Shown here: positions 1-6,681 of the stretch, in pieces
Numbering within the stretch: position 1 is the stretch's first letter
Layout: each line of letters begins with the position of its first letter
Assembly: GCA_016839955.1 (NCBI GenBank)
Contig: JAEOTI010000505.1
Coordinates: 1-6,681, forward strand
Direction: 5' to 3'
DNA from: Candidatus Hodarchaeota archaeon
GTDB taxonomy: Archaea; Asgardarchaeota; Heimdallarchaeia; Hodarchaeales; YT1-057
DNA: 6,681 nucleotides
Program-made: the position numbers and the translations under genes
The notes under the pieces: generated by a model
Databases searched by the model: none
What the model was told of the DNA's origin: nothing
Seen by the model: only the letters and a program-made list of their open reading frames with translations

Positions 1-279
1 AAATTTTCGGAAGATTTCATTATTTGCTGTTTCATGGGAAGTTGTATTATGAGGATTAGAAAAGCAGGCAAGATGGATGTTGAAAAAGCCTCCATTATTG
101 AAAAAATCACTTAAGTTCTTTGAATTAATATTACGAACTACCATGCCAATGAAGTTTTGAATAGCGAGAGAAGAGACTCTTAACTCGATAAAATCAATAT
201 AACCTCTAACATTTTCAAAACTCCTATCTAAAAATTCAATATTAGATGGGATATAACCAATGTTTTTGGAGAGAGGCAT
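1..279 (-). CDS. Unrecognised protein, N-terminal 93 residues (runs off the window)
   Basis: This reading frame opens at an ATG 17 bases after the stop codon of the PAPS-reductase-like gene and stays open for 93 codons to the window edge, so the C-terminus is missing. A GTGAG motif at 284-288 gives a Shine-Dalgarno match about four bases before the ATG. The short gap and shared strand make it the last visible gene of the same operon. The translation starts MPLSKNIGYIPSN and is mixed hydrophobic and polar, with no signal peptide, clear membrane span, Walker motif or cysteine cluster. I do not recognise the family. Its position directly after the sulfur-enzyme gene suggests a role in the same system, but that rests on context alone. 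The open frame and Shine-Dalgarno support a real gene; the function is unknown. Confidence 0.7.
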   Translation of the reverse strand, partial: MPLSKNIGYIPSNIEFLDRSFENVRGYIDFIELRVSSLAIQNFIGMVVRNINSKNLSDFFNNGGFFNIHLACFSNPHNTTSHETANNEIFRKF

Positions 280-296
280 ATAACTCACACGAGGAT

Positions 297-2201
297 TTAA
301 GCACCTGATAATTGAGATTCTTCATCTAATACTGAATGTTGAGTTAATCTTGTAGTTGAATACTTAACTTTCCTATCAATCAGAAGTCTATCAGGCTTAT
401 AATGAAGGGCGACACATCCCATCTTTAAAAGTTCACCTGAGGTACATTTTAAACAATGGGTACATTTTGTTGAATCTACTACAAATTGTTCATCAATAAT
501 TTTGATTGCTCCGTTTGGACATAGCCCTACACATGCAGCACATTTAATGCAATTGTAAGATTTGTTTAATTGGCGGATTAGTCTCCCTCTAAGGATTCGT
601 TTTTTATGCTTATTTTTTTCAAAGATTTTGTATTGAAGTCTATTAGACCCTTCAAAATATCGAATAGTAAACTTTTTTCCTTCTATTTTAAATAATGTCC
701 GATCTCCGATGGGAATCCCTTTAGGTTGGCCAAATATCTTGAGAAATTCGTATGAATCGCTTGTTAACGGATAATCTAACGATATTACCATCATTTCCGC
801 CTGTTTGCATGGATTCGATTCATTATCGAAAGAGTTTTCTTTAGAAAAATCATCTTGGTGTTTTGTGAAGGAGTCATCTGTTTCCATTGTTTCGAATTCA
901 TTAGAATTAGAATGTGAAATATCACCGATTATTCTATTATGATATTTAACCCTTCGACCTTTCCATACTTGATCATAAATCCAATCTTCCGCATAATTAT
1001 GATCTGTTTCTTTTGAAATTGATTTAGAAAAATCTTGAAGGTGTTTATACCATTTCTTAGCTTTTTCAGGTCGGATTTTCTCAAACAGGTAAGTATCGAA
1101 AAGGCCATTATTTGGACAAGCCCAACAACCTACTCGTGCAAATCCTTCTTCATATAGAGGATTTAATGGTAAATTTTGCCATAATGTATAAAGCCAAACA
1201 TCGATTTCTGTCCAAATTAAAATGGGATAGGCGCTATATTGTCTTTGGAGTTTAGTATTCTGATGTTCCCGTGGATATTCAGCTCTTACATTCGATTCTT
1301 CTCTTCTAATCCCATCAAAACTTAAAGTACTGGTAGATAATGTTGAATAGTACTGATTAGCTGGTGCTGCTTTTTGTGTTGAACAACACCAACGCATTAT
1401 TCGGCTTGGGGGCCCTAATTCTTTGCAAAGAGCTAGGAAATTATTCTTAGACTTTGCCTCAATCACTTTTCCGAAAATGGCCCTATATTTTTCGTCTATT
1501 TCCCTGACATAGTCTACTGTTTCTTGGTATTCAATATCTGTGTTTGAAAAAAGTAATGATATCTCGCCCAATGCTTTTTTGACTAAATGAGCGGTCACAG
1601 CACTATCTTTGCCACCGCTAAACGAAGCTAATATCTCATACCCTCTTTTTTTCTTAGCAACTCTTTTGATAAATCTTATTGCTTCAGCTTCTAATTTCTC
1701 AAGTTTTTGTATATTTCCCTCAATTAGCTTTTGACGATAATCAGGATCTTCCCAAAAATATCCGTTGATTTTGCATTGAGAGCGTCTAATACTAATTTGG
1801 TTATGTATTTCATCAATCTCCAATTTTCGATTCATTAATTTCCAATCATTTGTATTTTCATCATTAACCAGAGCTAACTTGAAATGCGCTAATCCCCTTG
1901 ACATTTCAGAGTAAAGAAAATTACGGCTACGATAGAGAATTCTGGGAAATCTTGCTTCCCGGTCTTTTTTGGTCTCTTCTTCTCCTTTTCCTCCTATATT
2001 GATCTTATTTACGAAGAGATCCTTGTACATCTTATATTCTTTCCTTCCAACAGGTTTTACACGAGAAGGAAAATCGACGACAATATGTGATTTCGTCCGT
2101 AAACCCTTCTTACCTCTTTCAAGTTTTTCTGTTAAATATTTCCCGCATTCCCTTTGAATTAAGGGGACATTACACTCTGTACACCATTTAAATGCTCTCA
2201 T
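297..2201 (-). CDS. PAPS-reductase-like PP-loop enzyme with N-terminal Cys motif and C-terminal 2x[4Fe-4S] ferredoxin-like domain
   Basis: Predicted soluble enzyme of 634 residues in the PAPS reductase/DndC-like ATP pyrophosphatase superfamily, which activates substrates with ATP for sulfur transfer or reduction. From the N-terminus, C7-x2-C10 and C19 resemble a zinc-binding start. The PP-loop SGGKDS is at 195-200. A CC pair (272-273) and C359-x2-C362 form the CC...CxxC layout that binds [4Fe-4S] in APS reductases. GIRREES begins at 297. A polar, probably disordered linker spans about 429-463. Two ferredoxin motifs follow: C551/554/557/561 and C580/583/586/596. The ATG at 2201 is preferred over the one at 2216 because it overlaps the ATPase stop as ATGA, has GGGAG about eight bases upstream, and puts the first CxxC where this archaeal family usually has it. 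Overall layout recalls archaeal proteins such as MJ0066. The substrate (DNA, tRNA or a small sulfur compound) cannot be read from sequence. Confidence 0.9.
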   Translation of the reverse strand: MRAFKWCTECNVPLIQRECGKYLTEKLERGKKGLRTKSHIVVDFPSRVKPVGRKEYKMYKDLFVNKINIGGKGEEETKKDREARFPRILYRSRNFLYSEMSRGLAHFKLALVNDENTNDWKLMNRKLEIDEIHNQISIRRSQCKINGYFWEDPDYRQKLIEGNIQKLEKLEAEAIRFIKRVAKKKRGYEILASFSGGKDSAVTAHLVKKALGEISLLFSNTDIEYQETVDYVREIDEKYRAIFGKVIEAKSKNNFLALCKELGPPSRIMRWCCSTQKAAPANQYYSTLSTSTLSFDGIRREESNVRAEYPREHQNTKLQRQYSAYPILIWTEIDVWLYTLWQNLPLNPLYEEGFARVGCWACPNNGLFDTYLFEKIRPEKAKKWYKHLQDFSKSISKETDHNYAEDWIYDQVWKGRRVKYHNRIIGDISHSNSNEFETMETDDSFTKHQDDFSKENSFDNESNPCKQAEMMVISLDYPLTSDSYEFLKIFGQPKGIPIGDRTLFKIEGKKFTIRYFEGSNRLQYKIFEKNKHKKRILRGRLIRQLNKSYNCIKCAACVGLCPNGAIKIIDEQFVVDSTKCTHCLKCTSGELLKMGCVALHYKPDRLLIDRKVKYSTTRLTQHSVLDEESQLSGA

Positions 2202-4087
2202 GAAATATTCTCCCATAATAGTATGTTTTCTTGAGCAATTACATCTTTTTCTAAGTCATGAAATTTTCCCAATCTAGTAACTATTAACAGATCCACTTTT
2301 TGTCCGATATAATCCACAATATGCTGAAAGCTTGTATCGTCAGCAGTATGCAATGTTTCATCAATTATGAAGAAAGGAAACTTTCGTAAAAATGCATTCT
2401 TGATTGAAAAGCCAACGATAATCGCAATTAATCGTCGTTCTAGACCAGAAAGTTCTTTAAAATCTCCAGGTATTCCTGTTTTCCGAATGATTTTAATATT
2501 GAAATTATCATCAAAACATATTTTTTTTAACCTAGGAATATTTAGCTCATCTATCATTTGTTCTAGATGGTTGTTTATCTTATCCAAGATATTTTCCTGA
2601 ACAGAAACAATTTTCTTTTGTAAGAACAAAGTTATCTGCTTTAAATTCCGCCGTTGAACATCATAGATTTTAAGCCACGATAATTGAGTTTTGATTTTAG
2701 CTAAATTTTCTTCAGTACCAATTAATTGCTTTTCCAGTTGTTTGAGTTCACCTTGAATTTCCCTTTCCATGATTTGAATCTCTTGTTTTTTTTCAGATTT
2801 ATTTCTTATTTGAACCTGAAGATCATCGTATATCGCCTGTAATTTTTCGATTTCAGTCTGTATATTACTTATGTTTTCTTGAGCTGCTTCTAAATTCCTC
2901 TGTTTGCGATTAATATCATTATTTAGTCTCTGAATTCTCTTTTTCAGATTCTTCTTATCTTTGGGAAGCCCAACTTTAAGATTATGAAGTTTCTTTTCAC
3001 ATTCTTCTCTTCTTTTTTGGAGTTCACTCATATTGTTGCTAATCGCCATTTTTTCTTCTTTGAAGCGGAGATTTTCGTCTTCAATGCTTTTCAGCTTTTG
3101 AGACAGCTTTTCTTTTGATATAATAGAACTACAATGTTGACATTCGATTGCATCGTTTGTTAAAGTCTGGGTGAAATTAGTTATCAGAAGCTCCCGTTGT
3201 GAGATTTCACTATTCCTTTCTCGCAATTTCACCCTTATTCTCGCAATTTCGTCATCTAGTCTTTCTATCTCTTCATTAAAAGAATCAATTCGATCTTTTG
3301 CAGAACTAAATTCGTCCCCGATTATTGCGAGTTCTAATTCCAACGTATCTTTTTTTCGTTTCAGAGCTGGTACAAGAGAGCTCAATTCTCTCTTTTTTTC
3401 CTTCAACTTGCTCAATCTATTTTTACTTTCACCCAATTCTTTGGAGATGCTCTTGAATTGTACCAGAATAGCTGGATCAGCCGTTTCAGAAACCTCAGAT
3501 AGTTGAAACTTTTCAAACTCCGTTTTCTTTTTATTGATGTTCGAAAGAAATTTCTTATGCTCAGTTTGTAAGCGACGCTTTTCCATTAGCAGTTTTTGTG
3601 ATTCTTTACCTTTTTCATCCCTGTAACGTGAATCTAGTTTTATACAAATGGCATAAGCTTTTTCATAATAGTTCAACTCCGTCATTCGTACAAACCAATC
3701 TTTTAAGATTGCGAAATCTCCCTTAATCACAGCGTCCATAAGTTCATGGTTTTCCGTTAGAAAAACAAGTTGAGTTGCGATTTCCTTTTTTGTTAACAAT
3801 TCTTGTTTCCTTATGCGAACTGTTCCATCCGATGTCCTTCCTAATTCTGCAAAAAATTTGTCGTTTCCATTTTTTAGGCTCACTTCCCCAGTTAAAGCAG
3901 ATGAATTCAAAAAATGAGGGTCAATTACTTTAGAAGATTTAGGTAATAGTAATTGGAAGGCATGTAGTAGGCTTGTTTTTCCTGCAGCATTAGGCCCTGA
4001 TATGATATTCGCTCCAGGTTTGAATCTAAAGGTATGTTTTCCAAAGAAATAACCAATATTTTCTATATTTAACTCCCATTCGTCCAT
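2198..4087 (-). CDS. SMC/Rad50-like ATPase with CxxC hook, resembling archaea-specific SMC-related (Sph-like) proteins
   Basis: Predicted 629-residue DNA-associated ABC-type ATPase. Walker A GPNAAGKTS is at 31-39. Two long charged coiled-coil arms (about 141-315 and 320-500) flank a central CQHC at 316-319, the position of a zinc hook that would dimerise two molecules. The C-terminal head holds the signature-like LSGLERR at 546-552 and Walker B FPFFIIDET at 570-578, with E577 as likely catalytic base. The N-terminal NIENIGYFFG, the stretch TENHELMDAVIKGDF and the weakly conserved final segment resemble haloarchaeal SMC-related proteins more than Rad50 or DndD, although DndD has the same general fold. 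The start is ATG, nine bases past the stop of the 53-residue gene, with a weak GGGA upstream. The ATGA overlap with the PAPS-reductase-like gene implies coupled translation and a joint role. ATPase assignment is firm; the subfamily is less certain. Confidence 0.92.
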   Translation of the reverse strand: MDEWELNIENIGYFFGKHTFRFKPGANIISGPNAAGKTSLLHAFQLLLPKSSKVIDPHFLNSSALTGEVSLKNGNDKFFAELGRTSDGTVRIRKQELLTKKEIATQLVFLTENHELMDAVIKGDFAILKDWFVRMTELNYYEKAYAICIKLDSRYRDEKGKESQKLLMEKRRLQTEHKKFLSNINKKKTEFEKFQLSEVSETADPAILVQFKSISKELGESKNRLSKLKEKKRELSSLVPALKRKKDTLELELAIIGDEFSSAKDRIDSFNEEIERLDDEIARIRVKLRERNSEISQRELLITNFTQTLTNDAIECQHCSSIISKEKLSQKLKSIEDENLRFKEEKMAISNNMSELQKRREECEKKLHNLKVGLPKDKKNLKKRIQRLNNDINRKQRNLEAAQENISNIQTEIEKLQAIYDDLQVQIRNKSEKKQEIQIMEREIQGELKQLEKQLIGTEENLAKIKTQLSWLKIYDVQRRNLKQITLFLQKKIVSVQENILDKINNHLEQMIDELNIPRLKKICFDDNFNIKIIRKTGIPGDFKELSGLERRLIAIIVGFSIKNAFLRKFPFFIIDETLHTADDTSFQHIVDYIGQKVDLLIVTRLGKFHDLEKDVIAQENILLWENIS

Positions 4088-4096
4088 TGATATTCC

Positions 4097-4258
4097 CTAG
4101 TCCAAATTCTTAACGAAATCATCTATAAGTTTCTCTGCTTCTTTTTCAGATGCTTTTGTTCCTCGTTTTAAGGCACTAATAACTTCATTTTTAATGAAGA
4201 TCTTAATTTTTTCGTCTAGGTTATCTTTAGCTTCATTTTTTCTAATTTTTGATCCCAT
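4097..4258 (-). CDS. Small charged helical protein, 53 residues, unrecognised
   Basis: A short frame from ATG (4258) to TAG (4097-4099), encoding a lysine- and glutamate-rich peptide that starts MGSKIRKNEAKDN and ends DDFVKNLD. It has no cysteine, signal peptide or membrane span and would be almost wholly helical. Support comes from an archaeal-type Shine-Dalgarno GAGGT six bases before the ATG, a position that exactly bridges the 111-residue gene (43-base overlap) and the ATPase gene (nine-base gap), and amphipathic spacing in the second half. Without it, an unexplained gap of more than 120 bases would separate two tightly packed operon genes. It may be a small partner of the ATPase, a place comparable to that of DndE beside DndD, but it shows no DndE similarity that I can see. 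Confidence 0.6.
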   Translation of the reverse strand: MGSKIRKNEAKDNLDEKIKIFIKNEVISALKRGTKASEKEAEKLIDDFVKNLD

Positions 4259-4551
4259 ATCTTTACCTCATTGATTTTTGCTGGAATTTGATGTGGATAT
4301 ATTGGAGTCTGTTTCCATATTGAAACCCAAGGATCAAATTTCTCTCTAATTTTTTTAATCAAATATAGTCCACGGGTGTTATTTTTTAGAATAATCCAAG
4401 GTTTGAAATCTTGGCTTTCTTCTCTTGACATCCCAGAAATTCTGACATCCATCTCGAGTATCGCTTCTTCATGTTTCTCAACTAGATAAAAGAGACATTT
4501 CTTCATGTTTTCGTTCTCTACAAAATTAATTAGTACAAATATTGAATCCAT
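4216..4551 (-). CDS. Unrecognised 111-residue protein, first gene of the SMC/PAPS-reductase operon
   Basis: A 111-residue frame with an ATG start, a GTGA motif about seven bases upstream and a TATA-like box a further 35 bases up, so it looks like the promoter-proximal gene. The N-terminal stretch MDSIFVLINFVENEN could be a buried beta strand. The middle has FKPWIILKN and the region after it has FDPWVSIWKQTP, rich in Trp and Pro, which suggests a small globular mixed alpha/beta fold. There is no cysteine cluster, nucleotide-binding loop or signal peptide. An internal ATG at codon 16 is a possible later start, but its Shine-Dalgarno is no better. The 3' end overlaps the 53-residue gene by 43 bases in another frame. 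I do not recognise the family. Since it leads the operon it could be a regulator or a target-binding subunit, which is inference from position only. Confidence 0.7.
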   Translation of the reverse strand: MDSIFVLINFVENENMKKCLFYLVEKHEEAILEMDVRISGMSREESQDFKPWIILKNNTRGLYLIKKIREKFDPWVSIWKQTPIYPHQIPAKINEVKIWDQKLEKMKLKIT

Positions 4552-4592
4552 GACAAGTCACTTTAAGTTAGCTTGATCAAATTATAACATTT

Positions 4593-4608
4593 CTTAAATA
4601 ATCGTTTT
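4593..4608 (-). promoter_or_regulatory. Candidate archaeal BRE/TATA promoter for the SMC/PAPS-reductase operon
   Basis: On the minus strand a purine-rich AAAAACGA directly precedes TTATTTAAG, a reasonable match to an archaeal BRE plus TATA box. Transcription would start about 25 bases downstream, near 4570, leaving a leader of about 20 bases that contains the GTGA Shine-Dalgarno of the 111-residue gene. A second box, TATAAATG at 4613-4620, is an alternative with a poorer BRE. AT-rich DNA makes such matches common. Confidence 0.4.
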
Positions 4609-4634
4609 TATCCATTTATAGCATAAAATCTTGA

Positions 4635-4670
4635 ATTGGGAATATTACCTAAGCCAGGATAACTATGACC
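4635..4670. repeat. Imperfect direct repeat, copy A
   Basis: This stretch and copy B at 4780-4816 both begin ATTGG and share the core CCAGGAT..A.TATG.CC, with 14 of 17 core positions equal and about two thirds equal over the full length. On the minus strand both could encode GHxxPGL in a broken frame. This might be two relics of one sequence, an operator-like pair upstream of the operon, or chance in AT-rich DNA. Confidence 0.25.
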
Positions 4671-4779
4671 TATGGAATCCCTGAACAATGCAAATAAATC
4701 TATAGTTTTTGAGAGGAGTAACTGCAAGCTCATAGCAATTCAATAGTGGATTTGGTTATAGATATTATTTATTCAAATT

Positions 4780-4816
4780 ATTGGTAATGCCTGTGTAATC
4801 CAGGATCAATATGGCC
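4780..4816. repeat. Imperfect direct repeat, copy B
   Basis: Partner of the stretch at 4635-4670, about 145 bases away in the same orientation. The best-conserved part is CCAGGATCAATATGGCC. No further copy was noticed elsewhere in the window. Confidence 0.25.
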
Positions 4817-4993
4817 CTGTGTAGATATTTGAAACACTTGTACTCAAAAAGCTTTTTATTCTATTTTTCGTTGCTTACGACATTAATTATGCATCAGCTC
4901 ATTCTATTTTGAATTTGACCAAACACATCTCATTTTAATGTTGAACACACCCTAATAGTCCGTAAAACCATTTTGACTTCCTTTGTAAGAGCT

Positions 4994-5095
4994 TTAACTC
5001 TCCTTCAGATAAGGAGGGAAGATAACTCCCAGTGTTTCACTAATAAACAGTGGTAGTACCTTAAATCGACGCTCTAATGTGAATGTCATACGCAT
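4994..5095 (-). CDS. Possible tiny ORF or gene remnant, 33 residues (47 if read from GTG at 5137)
   Basis: From ATG at 5095 the frame reads MRMTFTLERRFKVLPLF and ends at TAA after 33 codons. The same frame is open back to GTG at 5137, which gives 47 codons starting VKNVYQPQEV. An in-frame TAG lies two codons upstream of that GTG. The GTG sits inside a perfect AGGAGGTGA (5135-5143), so that motif cannot serve the GTG by normal spacing, and no start codon lies at the usual distance downstream. A palindromic TTTATAAA at 5157-5164 is about 25 bases above the GTG, so leaderless initiation there is possible. The sequence has a basic and hydrophobic character like an internal piece of a larger enzyme. 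It may be a fossil fragment, for example of a transposase, or a small real gene. I cannot tell which. Confidence 0.25.
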   Translation of the reverse strand: MRMTFTLERRFKVLPLFISETLGVIFPPYLKES

Positions 5096-5134
5096 GTTGT
5101 CTCCAATAACTTCCTGGGGTTGGTATACGTTCTT

Positions 5135-5143
5135 CACCTCCTA
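5135..5143 (-). promoter_or_regulatory. Perfect Shine-Dalgarno AGGAGGTGA without an obvious start codon
   Basis: On the minus strand this is full complementarity to the conserved 3' end of 16S rRNA, the strongest ribosome-binding sequence in the window. No ATG, GTG or TTG lies four to ten bases downstream; the next in-frame ATG of the open frame is at 5095. The site may be the remains of a gene whose start was lost. Confidence 0.45.
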
Positions 5144-5187
5144 AAGTATCCAGTCATTTATAAATCATCAAAAGTTGGTGTTCTGTT

Positions 5188-6021
5188 TTAACTTGATTTT
5201 TGACTGCTTTTTCGACCGAAAAAGATTTTATATTCTTTAGAGGCATAAAAACTATAATTGGTAATATCCAAGCAGCCATTTCTTAATGGAACTTCCAACA
5301 GGTGTAATTGAAAAATCCATGTCGGATCATGTTCAAATTGCAAGTATAAACCGAATATATCTTTATTAGGATATAAATTTCTTAGTAAGAGCATTGGAAA
5401 AACTATTTGATGAATACTAAAACTCTTTTCAATATCTTTTTTGGCCTCAATTGCAATAATAACTTTATCTGATTCTAAAATCGCATCACATTCCATTTGA
5501 GTCGAACTAATGTTAATTTTTTCTGAAGAGATGTAAATTTCTCCTTGAACATTGGTGTTTATTCTACCAGAGTGAGAAAATACGTGATTTTCACCTATAA
5601 TCTCGACCATAAATGCGCTAATTATTCCCGTTCTGATCGCAAGGAATATACCTGTTTCCTCATTTACTAGTTCAGAATTGATGAGTATCGAATCAGAATA
5701 AATAGGCCTAAAGGGGGGTCCTTTGTAAGAACTAAAATTCTGTGGTATTTTGGGAAAGAGAGATCCAATTTCTCTTTCCTCACCTGTTTTAGTCAGAACA
5801 CATTCTCCTGAGCCTGTTCTAAAAAGTTCTAATTTAAAATCCTTGAGAATTCCAGGCAATCTCTCTTGGCAATATTGAGGAATCATTCTTACAGGTCTTA
5901 AGTCTAATCTTCGGAAATCCTCTCTTTCAATCTTAAAAGTAATTGAATTTGGATCATTCAACCAAGGGTCTAATTTCAGTTTAATTTCTGGATCTTGCAG
6001 CAATTTTTCCCACTTTGACAA
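5188..6021 (-). CDS. Putative PD-(D/E)XK type II restriction endonuclease-like protein
   Basis: Predicted 277-residue cytoplasmic nuclease. From the TTG at 6021 the protein begins SKWEKLLQDPE. The catalytic signature is E177-C-D179 followed, after a hydrophobic strand KVIIAI, by E192-A-K194, the classic D...ExK arrangement of PD-(D/E)XK enzymes. A SGR at 151-153 before it, a Q205 on the following helix and a Tyr-rich end (NYSFYASKEYK) match my memory of a type II restriction enzyme family (DUF6997-like). TTG at 6021 is preferred to TTG at 6036 because GGGA (6028-6031) lies six bases upstream; no ATG is available and an in-frame stop lies just above. It follows the phosphorothioation-associated-domain gene on the same strand, so the two may work together. 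No modification methylase is visible. The nuclease fold is likely; recognition site and dependence on DNA modification are unknown. Confidence 0.75.
   Translation of the reverse strand: MSKWEKLLQDPEIKLKLDPWLNDPNSITFKIEREDFRRLDLRPVRMIPQYCQERLPGILKDFKLELFRTGSGECVLTKTGEEREIGSLFPKIPQNFSSYKGPPFRPIYSDSILINSELVNEETGIFLAIRTGIISAFMVEIIGENHVFSHSGRINTNVQGEIYISSEKINISSTQMECDAILESDKVIIAIEAKKDIEKSFSIHQIVFPMLLLRNLYPNKDIFGLYLQFEHDPTWIFQLHLLEVPLRNGCLDITNYSFYASKEYKIFFGRKSSQKSS
5936..5993 (-). repeat. Tandem-type duplication, coding copy (5' end of nuclease gene)
   Basis: This stretch encodes nuclease residues around PEIKLKLDPWLNDPNSITF. It is matched, with about 80 percent identity by eye and one single-base gap, by 6036-6091. 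The offset is 100 bases at the best block, where 24 of 26 bases agree (TTGGTTGAAT.ATC.AAATTCAATTAC on the minus strand). The coding copy is intact. Confidence 0.8.
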
Positions 6022-6035
6022 TAATATTCCCTTCA

Positions 6036-6091
6036 AAGGTAATTGAATTTAGATTATTCAACCAAGATTAATTTTTAGCTTAATTTATGGG
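6036..6091 (-). repeat. Degenerate duplicate of the nuclease gene's 5' end, lying just upstream of its start
   Basis: Partner of 5936-5993. Read in the matching frame it meets TAA at the second codon and later loses frame through a one-base deletion, so it is non-coding. Weaker similarity continues to about 6113 (GGGAATAATCTTTGAACGGCCC against the codons for WEKLLQDP), which suggests the original duplication was longer and reached the 3' end of the upstream gene. It fills most of the gap between the two genes. Confidence 0.75.
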
Positions 6092-6102
6092 CCGTTCAAA
6101 GA

Positions 6103-6663
6103 TTATTCCCGATTCGATATTATTCTTACATTCTTTCTTGGATTATTAGCCGTTTTTATCACTTTATGATCTTTAATGTTTACTCTGTTGAATCGAAGCC
6201 ATTCTTCCCATACTACCTTCCTACCCATTATTGTACCAAGTTTTTTGCCTTTAAAGAATGTTTCGTTATTTAATAGTCCCAATTCTTCTTCATTGCTCGT
6301 TAATTCAGCAAACCTTAAATAATACTTGTAATCTTTGTCAACAAAGAGTTCTTTCCGGTGGAGTATTTGTCCTCCTCCTTTTATTATGCGAACTGTTGGA
6401 GGGGAAATAGATAGGTTAATACTAATACTTTGTTTTAATTCGGGATGGCCTTTTTCATCAAATTGAGGATAATGCAGGAAAGAGACTCTTTTTTTCCGCA
6501 GATTAATCTTTACCAAGTTCCATTGATCTTTTTGAGCGGGGTTCAATATCCGTCTTGATATTTCATACAGATTCCGAAGTTCCTCCTCCAATGTATCAAT
6601 ATAGCTTCGATGCACATAAAAATCATCTGCTACTCTCTTACCTACCACTATCATTACTTCCAC
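6103..6663 (-). CDS. Stand-alone homologue of the C-terminal domain of DNA phosphorothioation-associated putative methyltransferases
   Basis: A 186-residue protein whose ordered motifs match what I remember of the C-terminal third of the TIGR04096 family: VGKR (7-10), YVHRS (16-20), a VK strand after WNL (48-52), YPQFD (65-69), GHPEL (72-76), ILHRKE (100-105), LTSNEEELGL (121-130) and a final LGT (142-144) leading to KDHKVIK. The bacterial proteins begin with a SAM-binding methyltransferase domain, which is absent here. The domain's biochemical role is not established as far as I know. Its family link is to the Dnd DNA-sulfur systems. The frame starts at GTG (6663) right after an in-frame TGA; ATG at 6654 is an alternative. 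No strong Shine-Dalgarno precedes GTG, so coupling to an upstream gene that ends at that TGA is likely. The nuclease gene follows on the same strand. Family call is from memory, without a search. Confidence 0.75.
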   Translation of the reverse strand: MEVMIVVGKRVADDFYVHRSYIDTLEEELRNLYEISRRILNPAQKDQWNLVKINLRKKRVSFLHYPQFDEKGHPELKQSISINLSISPPTVRIIKGGGQILHRKELFVDKDYKYYLRFAELTSNEEELGLLNNETFFKGKKLGTIMGRKVVWEEWLRFNRVNIKDHKVIKTANNPRKNVRIISNRE

Positions 6664-6681
6664 TCAATTAAAGTAAGAGAA

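Follow-up and report, generated by a model that had tools for sequence, protein, structure and literature searches.

An ASRP-type ATPase operon with a PAPS-ferredoxin enzyme in Asgard archaea: a candidate DNA sulfur-modification system

Can an archaeal ATPase family whose known roles lie mainly in shaping cells and organising chromosomes also serve an enzyme that puts sulfur into DNA? A Candidatus Hodarchaeota contig (GenBank assembly GCA_016839955.1, JAEOTI010000505.1, positions 1 to 6,681) raises this question. Throughout this stretch of 6681 bases, hereafter the window, all genes lie on the minus strand. In it the gene of an ASRP-type ATPase overlaps by ATGA (2201-2198) the gene of an enzyme that joins a phosphoadenosine phosphosulfate (PAPS) reductase-like domain to a ferredoxin-type region. 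An original prediction from the sequence had combined this pair with an upstream nuclease and a phosphorothioation-associated domain into a modification plus restriction system. Profile searches confirmed the four features on one strand and the ATGA junction; two small genes and the start of a downstream gene are additional.

We propose that the two small genes, the ATPase and the enzyme form a four-gene Asgard operon that installs sulfur in DNA, probably as a backbone phosphorothioate, and we hold this proposal and its negation about equally probable. Sequence comparison establishes which families the genes belong to, how the operon is laid out, that ASRPs recur with PAPS-ferredoxin enzymes and that the enzyme family is linked to phosphorothioation cassettes. 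The four genes are:

4551-4216, minus strand: P4, probable small A, 111 amino acids
4258-4097, minus strand: P4b, small B, a 53-amino-acid micro-gene that overlaps P4 and lies just upstream of the ASRP gene
4087-2198, minus strand: ASRP-type ATPase (Sph/ClsN kin, model NF045487), 629 amino acids
2201-297, minus strand: PAPS-ferredoxin enzyme of BrxP/SspD type; its open reading frame (ORF) opens at 2216, and 2201 is the likelier start, as in the relatives P0001 and L221

The closest relative, contig C397 of genome G052 (stretch L221), matches the window at 96% over 5.2 kb and repeats the ATGA overlap (7191-7194). Protein searches found relatives at 51–96% identity for the ATPase, and at 60–95%, then 45% and less, for the enzyme. 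Between the window and L221, the ratio of nonsynonymous to synonymous substitution rates (dN/dS) was 0.06 for P4, 0.19 for the enzyme (569 codons) and 0.26 for the ASRP; P4b showed no synonymous and three other changes. Since relatives of both ATPase and enzyme exist and dN/dS is low for P4, enzyme and ASRP, this gene set is not a product of chance.

The enzyme and its family

The enzyme matched PAPS_reduct (4.2e-39) and has a C-terminal ferredoxin-type region that Fer4 models match below the Pfam cut-offs. PADLOC ranked BrxP first (1.4e-72), then SspD (1.2e-13) and DndC (6.2e-8), with positions 100-508 of the 779 in the BrxP model covering enzyme residues 162-603. Numbered from the start at 2216, the protein comprises an N-terminal Cys-rich knuckle, a PP-loop domain (about 168-370) with the motif SGGKDS and the cysteines C277-C278 and C364-C367, an alpha+beta domain in the middle and, at the C-terminus, a ferredoxin-like domain (C556 to C591). 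The BrxP profile and an AlphaFold2 model agree on a BrxP/SspD-type architecture of PP-loop PAPS domain, middle domain and ferredoxin region. Passages of PMC12839542 describe this architecture for BrxP and part of SspD, and tie the family to phosphorothioation (papers cited here by PMC number are represented by passages unless the main text is named). The original prediction saw a ferredoxin-fused enzyme in the place of DndC; the fusion is there, and it is not new, being already known in that role from type-4 BREX and part of Ssp. The fold matches listed contain no DndC or SspD row, which excludes nothing.

A scan of genome contigs with the enzyme gave at least 592 stretches, at least 372 of them relatives, and 80 of these were kept (78 bacterial, 2 archaeal). 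These 80 loci are no sampling of archaeal contexts and do not include the window's own clade. An SspB/DUF4007 homologue lies near 76 of the 80, within fetched stretches of up to 10 kb each side, while SspC-like genes and cysteine-desulfurase homologues occur at 59 loci each. These neighbourhoods support the placing of the enzyme in a family tied to DNA phosphorothioation, in agreement with the original prediction.

Where does the window enzyme fall within this family? In a quick tree (LG+G4, 86 rows) it groups with P0002-P0005 (support 100) inside a 24-sequence clade whose named or genome-assigned members are all Asgard (P0012, P0037, and L234 from G011). The 40-row group that holds it has a support of 87 and the DUF4007-fused proteins P0116/P0119 as its basal branch, and the bacterial cassette enzymes form the neighbouring group. 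The common Asgard enzymes (roughly 600–690 amino acids) form a separate clade of 12 rows (support 100), with the window enzyme outside. PAPS-type enzymes matched at 1e-30 in 140 of 227 Asgard genomes, so the mere presence of such an enzyme means little. Viral contigs scanned with the enzyme alone yielded no relative; a wider viral scan gave mostly short PAPS-type proteins, three of which served as tree rows.

Ssp-type genes also occur in Asgard archaea. Genome G034 holds a nuclease, PAPS enzyme, SspB, SspC and desulfurase together, and in G001 a single contig carries a PAPS enzyme, SspC and a desulfurase. In the G034 cluster (L236, contig C166, 885-15000), the DUF6997 nuclease, PAPS-ferredoxin enzyme, SspB, SspC and cysteine desulfurase are followed by one small AAA protein and by large unknown proteins.

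The ATPase

The ATPase is best described by far by the ASRP model NF045487 (2.9e-81, 273.9 bits; cut-off 300), with which seven other Asgard ASRPs score 184–365 bits. It reached 31 bits with DndD and about 33 with SMC. By eye, it has GPNAAGKTS near the N-terminus (Walker A) and ELSGLER and FFIIDE near the C-terminus. This is the layout by which PMC9389158 defines ASRPs: an N-terminal Walker A, C-terminal Walker B and signature motifs, and a coiled coil between. A central CxxC (residues 316-319, ECQHC), present in 22 of 22 aligned ASRPs, can be read as a Rad50-like zinc hook.

Full-length ASRPs, taken as those with at least 453 bits against a 22-row ASRP model that includes them (best unrelated ORF, 113 bits), are found at 12 loci in the 227 Asgard genomes. 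The ATPase search had matched 37 of these genomes, many over a short stretch only; the 12 do not include an incomplete ASRP at the edge of a contig in G044 (288 amino acids, 339 bits), a genome with no PAPS-type match. In the ASRP tree the window clade (100/100) is sister to G083 (98/98), while G112 and G115 form another group (100/100), with a warning for long branches. A near relative, P0124 from Promethearchaeota, shows 53% identity. Among 292 Thermoplasmatota genomes, two carry an ASRP at 1e-40 (G435 and G238); a search in a single Thermoplasmatota genome gave weak matches only.

G052 carries a second ASRP on contig C184, whose neighbours look by eye like those in G041, G043, G049, G050 and G051 and which groups with them in the tree. 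Because G052 also keeps this housekeeping-type ASRP, its PAPS-linked ASRP is an additional, dedicated copy. RdfA adjoins the ASRP at three of five archaeal plasmid loci viewed (Methanohalobium and two haloarchaea), consistent with the requirement of RdfA and Sph3 for rod shape (PMC10869688).

Recurrence of the pair

ASRP and enzyme are directly adjacent in the window and G052, and divergent copies of the pair occur in G112 (0.6 kb apart) and G115 (2 kb). The G112 and G115 enzymes both have RWCC...CWxCP and the ferredoxin cysteines. Matches to both proteins share four further contigs, of 29362, 8939, 48183 and 24755 bases, which is presence on one contig and not adjacency. Among the 12 full-length Asgard loci, three (G052:C397, G112, G115) have the enzyme within 5 kb of the ASRP against an expected 0.037 (Poisson 8e-6). 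G052:C397 is close kin of the window and could not but show the pair; without it, two of 11 remain against 0.032 expected (Poisson 5e-4). We regard it as likely that enzyme and ASRP form one functional unit. The original pairing of an Sph-like ATPase with the enzyme is borne out in other Asgard loci.

In Thermoplasmatota, G435 has a shorter PAPS-type PP-loop protein, lacking the ferredoxin part, 2.3 kb from its ASRP on the opposite strand, and no PAPS-type protein was seen on the 7.7-kb contig of G238. No title or abstract opening found in a literature search described an ASRP/PAPS-reductase pair, and the main text of the ASRP family paper (PMC9389158) contains none of the terms phosphoadenosine, neighbor, operon, sulfur or Dnd.

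In G112 (L231, contig C7, 12293-14641), a C5 DNA methylase gene (PF00145, 3.5e-58) follows the ASRP-PAPS genes in the same direction, as does an ORF that resembles HhH-GPD glycosylases by eye.

Small genes and AAA ATPases

Small B is defined by position: all 12 full-length Asgard loci have a same-strand ORF of 44–82 amino acids whose end lies no more than 50 bases from the start of the ASRP gene. As a control, the same was seen for 5 of 56 other genes of at least 300 amino acids in these regions. Both Thermoplasmatota ASRP loci have such an ORF, and the five archaeal plasmid loci are mixed, two having unrelated-looking ORFs. Identity of P4b with the small B of housekeeping-type loci was rejected at the sequence level, where no match was found; the likeness is one of position only.

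Small A, a gene for about 110–130 amino acids, precedes small B at six housekeeping-type loci, in G097, G116 (start unclear), G083 and G238, and in the window and G052. When a model was built from nine small-A proteins other than the window's, P4 was its best hit beyond the training sequences (E 0.0014 among 4755 ORFs, against 0.22 for the closest unrelated ORF). Adding the divergent G083 copy weakened P4 to 0.14, behind one unrelated ORF. In hhalign comparisons P4 matched the G083 small A at 7.8e-5 (probability 61%) and those of G097/G116 at 1.5e-3; against the housekeeping small-A set it had no match. With the matches to the model and to G083 on one side, and the weakening and the missing housekeeping match on the other, kinship of P4 with small A is probable, not proven. 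Small A and small B offer two concrete candidate subunits for work on ASRPs.

Two other identities for P4 were rejected. It has no DndE family match, and its single-sequence fold (pLDDT 59.5) is too weak to judge; comparison also set it apart from the repeat protein of G112 and G115, genomes that have another small protein instead of small A. That protein occurs near the ASRP, twice in L231 (9923-10393, 11873-12283) and in tandem-repeat-like form in L225 (9486-10490), and has no Pfam match.

Homologous AAA ATPases lie upstream at G083, G097, G112, G115, G238 and G435, and G116 also has an AAA ATPase; the window and the ORFs of L221 showed none. In the cassettes of stretches L224, L223, L293 and L222, the ASRP is accompanied by small A, small B, an AAA ATPase of its own and unknown proteins of 273–351 amino acids, which are homologous between L224 and L293. 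No PAPS-ferredoxin enzyme was seen in these fetched stretches, and the cassettes may represent different systems that share this core. Two Asgard genomes also have a Rad50-like ATPase together with two partner genes, in L223 (3882-7444) and L232 (7914-11411), in L232 near an ORF that by eye resembles C5 methylases.

Proposed function and comparison with known systems

How might the four genes work together? Sulfur would come from a host cysteine desulfurase encoded elsewhere. To judge from family and fold, the PP-loop domain would use ATP to activate the target phosphate, the sulfur would be delivered by the CC...CxxC site, interpreted as a [4Fe-4S] cluster, and the ferredoxin domain would handle electrons or extra clusters. 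Gene order and analogy suggest that a zinc-hook ASRP dimer, together with small A and small B, would load on and scan DNA, a place filled by DndD-DndE in Dnd and by SspC with SspB in Ssp (PMC10853773). The nuclease and the phosphorothioation-associated domain would be optional restriction or reader add-ons at this locus. For the product itself, sulfur in DNA, we see the chances as even.

Like type-4 BREX and SspABCD, the window has a PP-loop enzyme of PAPS type in which an alpha+beta domain lies in the middle and a ferredoxin-type region at the C-terminus. It differs in having an ASRP and two small genes instead of SspB/DUF4007, SspC, PglZ and BrxL: none of SspB/DUF4007, SspC/BrxC, PglZ and BrxL was found among the six window proteins scanned. 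SspC, PglZ and BrxL were searched among window proteins only. DUF4007 was found in G034 and G001 and in none of the genomes G052, G112 and G115, an absence that is not certain because these genomes are drafts. What looks new is the enzyme's partner: small A, small B and an ASRP in place of SspB/DUF4007 and DndE.

With Dnd, the window has in common a PP-loop enzyme beside a coiled-coil ABC ATPase and a small partner gene. Yet DndC (TIGR03183) scored 32.9 bits against a cut-off of 290.4 and DndD (TIGR03185) 31 against 245.85, so that the locus is indeed unlike canonical Dnd, and DndD has no hook (PMC10853773). DndE (TIGR03184) had no match in the scanned window proteins (P4b left out) or in G052; none of 14 control genomes passed the cut-off, and a divergent DndE may escape. 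Neither DndE nor a cysteine desulfurase was found among the window proteins scanned, as originally stated. PbeABCD (CxC ABC-ATPase-DndE) systems also combine a hook-bearing ABC ATPase with small partner genes and sometimes cytosine methylases (PMC10853773), which recalls G112. In the window, however, the hook is CxxC rather than CxC, the ASRP family scores best and DndE has no match. Sph/Sph3-RdfA and the coalescin ClsN share the ATPase family and the central CxxC, whereas the window ASRP is linked to a sulfur enzyme.

The small A/small B/ASRP module occurs in Asgard and Thermoplasmatota genomes. Our tentative view, which we rate somewhat short of even, is that a further DNA sulfur-modification architecture exists beside Dnd and Ssp/BREX-4, in which a zinc-hook ASRP core with small subunits, and often a dedicated AAA ATPase, would serve PAPS-ferredoxin enzymes of the window, G112 and G115 types. 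In further genomes this core may have different partners, of which the C5 DNA methylase near it in G112 would be one. If one branch does serve a DNA sulfur enzyme, it would give a third role to these widespread archaeal ATPases. It would also give some Asgard archaea a likely DNA mark, of which we found no mention in the main text of the Asgard defence survey PMC11291487, and would make the exchangeability of the motor in phosphorothioation systems testable.

Several observations weigh against a role of the four genes in DNA sulfuration. No ASRP occurs at any of the 80 kept scan loci, so the family link to phosphorothioation speaks for the enzyme and not for the pair. Within the 24-row clade, gene setting is visible only for the window clade and the short contig L234. 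Nine of the 12 full-length Asgard ASRP loci lack such an enzyme within 5 kb, and for the ASRP P0124, on a contig of 205157 bases, none was among the matches listed (120 of 584). The chance estimate for the pair is post hoc and assumes evenly spread genes, and G112 and G115 sit on long branches. In L221 the enzyme gene reads as two ORFs (573 and 81 amino acids). The window has no desulfurase, SspB or DndE, SspB being the nickase needed for single-strand phosphorothioation (PMC8092258). Finally, known ASRPs have to do with the shape of the cell (Sph3) and the domains of the chromosome (ClsN) rather than with DNA modification.

Outer genes of the window

Three further genes flank the core:

6663-6103, minus strand: standalone TIGR04096-type domain, 186 amino acids, from a profile match
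6036-5188, minus strand: DUF6997 PD-(D/E)XK-like restriction nuclease, accessory, 282 amino acids; the start may be 6021
288-1, minus strand: first 96 codons of a downstream gene that runs off the window end

The original prediction made the nuclease and the domain parts of the system and named a neighbourhood check as the way to refute this. That check came out against it: the domain occurs in 1 and the nuclease in 12 of the 227 Asgard genomes. The idea of a modification plus restriction system keeps its enzyme family and ATPase pairing, and loses these two genes as parts. They are not core. The nuclease matched DUF6997 (PF22518) at 59.2 bits (cut-off 27) and PADLOC REase_II at 3.6e-9, with a D...EAK motif by eye. 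As a fixed partner it was rejected: it rarely lies beside a PAPS enzyme and is truncated in the closest relative, to 158 amino acids in L221. In surroundings viewed for 10 of the 12 genomes (eight regions, L236 and L221, some contigs being 5–6 kb; G179 and G213 left out), a PAPS-type enzyme adjoins it only in G034, in the Ssp-type cluster, and in G052. A search against plasmids gave no match to the nuclease.

TIGR04096 is a model for phosphorothioation-associated putative methyltransferases. The match to it (5.5e-24, 84.7 bits; cut-off 150) covers profile positions 323-477 of 478; the ORF opens right after a stop codon, and no methyltransferase part was found in it. Cyanobacterial plasmid proteins match the domain. 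It is N-terminal in the four bacterial plasmid proteins viewed (about 670–750 amino acids), whereas the TIGR04096 model has it C-terminal. In Trichormus its gene adjoins genes for a PAPS protein, a large protein, DUF4007 and DndB; the other three have no such cluster annotated within 7 kb, apart from one desulfurase. The domain's tie to phosphorothioation is therefore real but loose.

A gap of about 0.64 kb separates the nuclease and domain genes from the core. Their DNA identity between window and L221 is 88–93%, against 96–97% for the core, and dN/dS was 0.28 for the domain and 0.35 for the nuclease fragment. The downstream gene, complete in L221 (9103-10236), fuses a xylose-isomerase-like TIM barrel (PF01261, 3.1e-11) to an S-adenosylmethionine (SAM) methyltransferase domain. 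It was found in the closest kin only, its relative P0129 (71%) lying on the 29362-base contig. It was rejected as core, with one relative among 2427 candidates and no purifying selection over the 96 codons (dN/dS 1.54 on 14 changes). As to a DNA methyltransferase cognate to the nuclease, the TIGR04096-type ORF has no methyltransferase part, and the downstream gene, through its SAM domain in L221, is at most a possible candidate.

Alternative explanations

The pair could work together and yet have another substrate, the sulfur going to RNA, protein or a cofactor while the ASRP complex acts as the scaffold of a cytoskeletal or nucleoprotein assembly, a role that Sph3 may have in Haloferax. The dominance of phosphorothioation cassettes among the kept genome relatives (76 of 80) and the position of the window enzyme outside the clade of common Asgard enzymes speak against it, and we consider it unlikely, though well worth keeping in mind. 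An ordinary type II restriction cluster that happens to lie beside an unrelated sulfur enzyme and a chromosome protein would explain the nuclease, which has the DUF6997 match above cut-off, the REase_II match and the catalytic motif expected of a PD-(D/E)XK enzyme. It would also explain why nuclease and domain stand apart from the core, are not conserved with it and have diverged more. This account fits the nuclease half only; for the pair it is contradicted by the ATGA overlap, the four further shared contigs and the recurrence in G112 and G115, which makes a chance neighbourhood improbable as a whole.

Decay offers another route to the same layout. The window could hold what is left of a type-4 BREX or Ssp system; SspB and SspC would have disappeared or be encoded at another site of the genome, and the ASRP would be incidental. 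BrxP is indeed the best PADLOC match of the enzyme, and Ssp-type genes exist in the same phylum (G034, G001). Selection, however, keeps both enzyme and ASRP, and DUF4007 appears in none of the three draft genomes that carry the pair, with the caveat for drafts given above; we find a remnant improbable. Least probable, in our judgement, is a Lamassu-like abortive defence in which the SMC-like ATPase would sense foreign DNA with the small genes as partners and the PAPS enzyme as toxic effector. PADLOC LmuB does match the ASRP (1.2e-19), and small partner genes and varied neighbours would suit such a system. At 274 bits against 69, the ASRP model is far ahead, and related enzymes, where their setting was seen, lie mostly in modification cassettes.

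Further observations on the window

Rfam and tRNA scans of the window were empty, and an AT-rich pattern that we looked at gave nothing of use. By eye, two similar stretches of about 35 bases each lie across the start of the nuclease gene, at a distance of 100 bases (6066-6032 and 5966-5932, minus strand). Upstream of the locus in L221 are two short ORFs (1648-2360 and 2274-2993) that by eye resemble remnants of transposases, the first having no Pfam match, together with an ORF of leucine-rich-repeat-like character.

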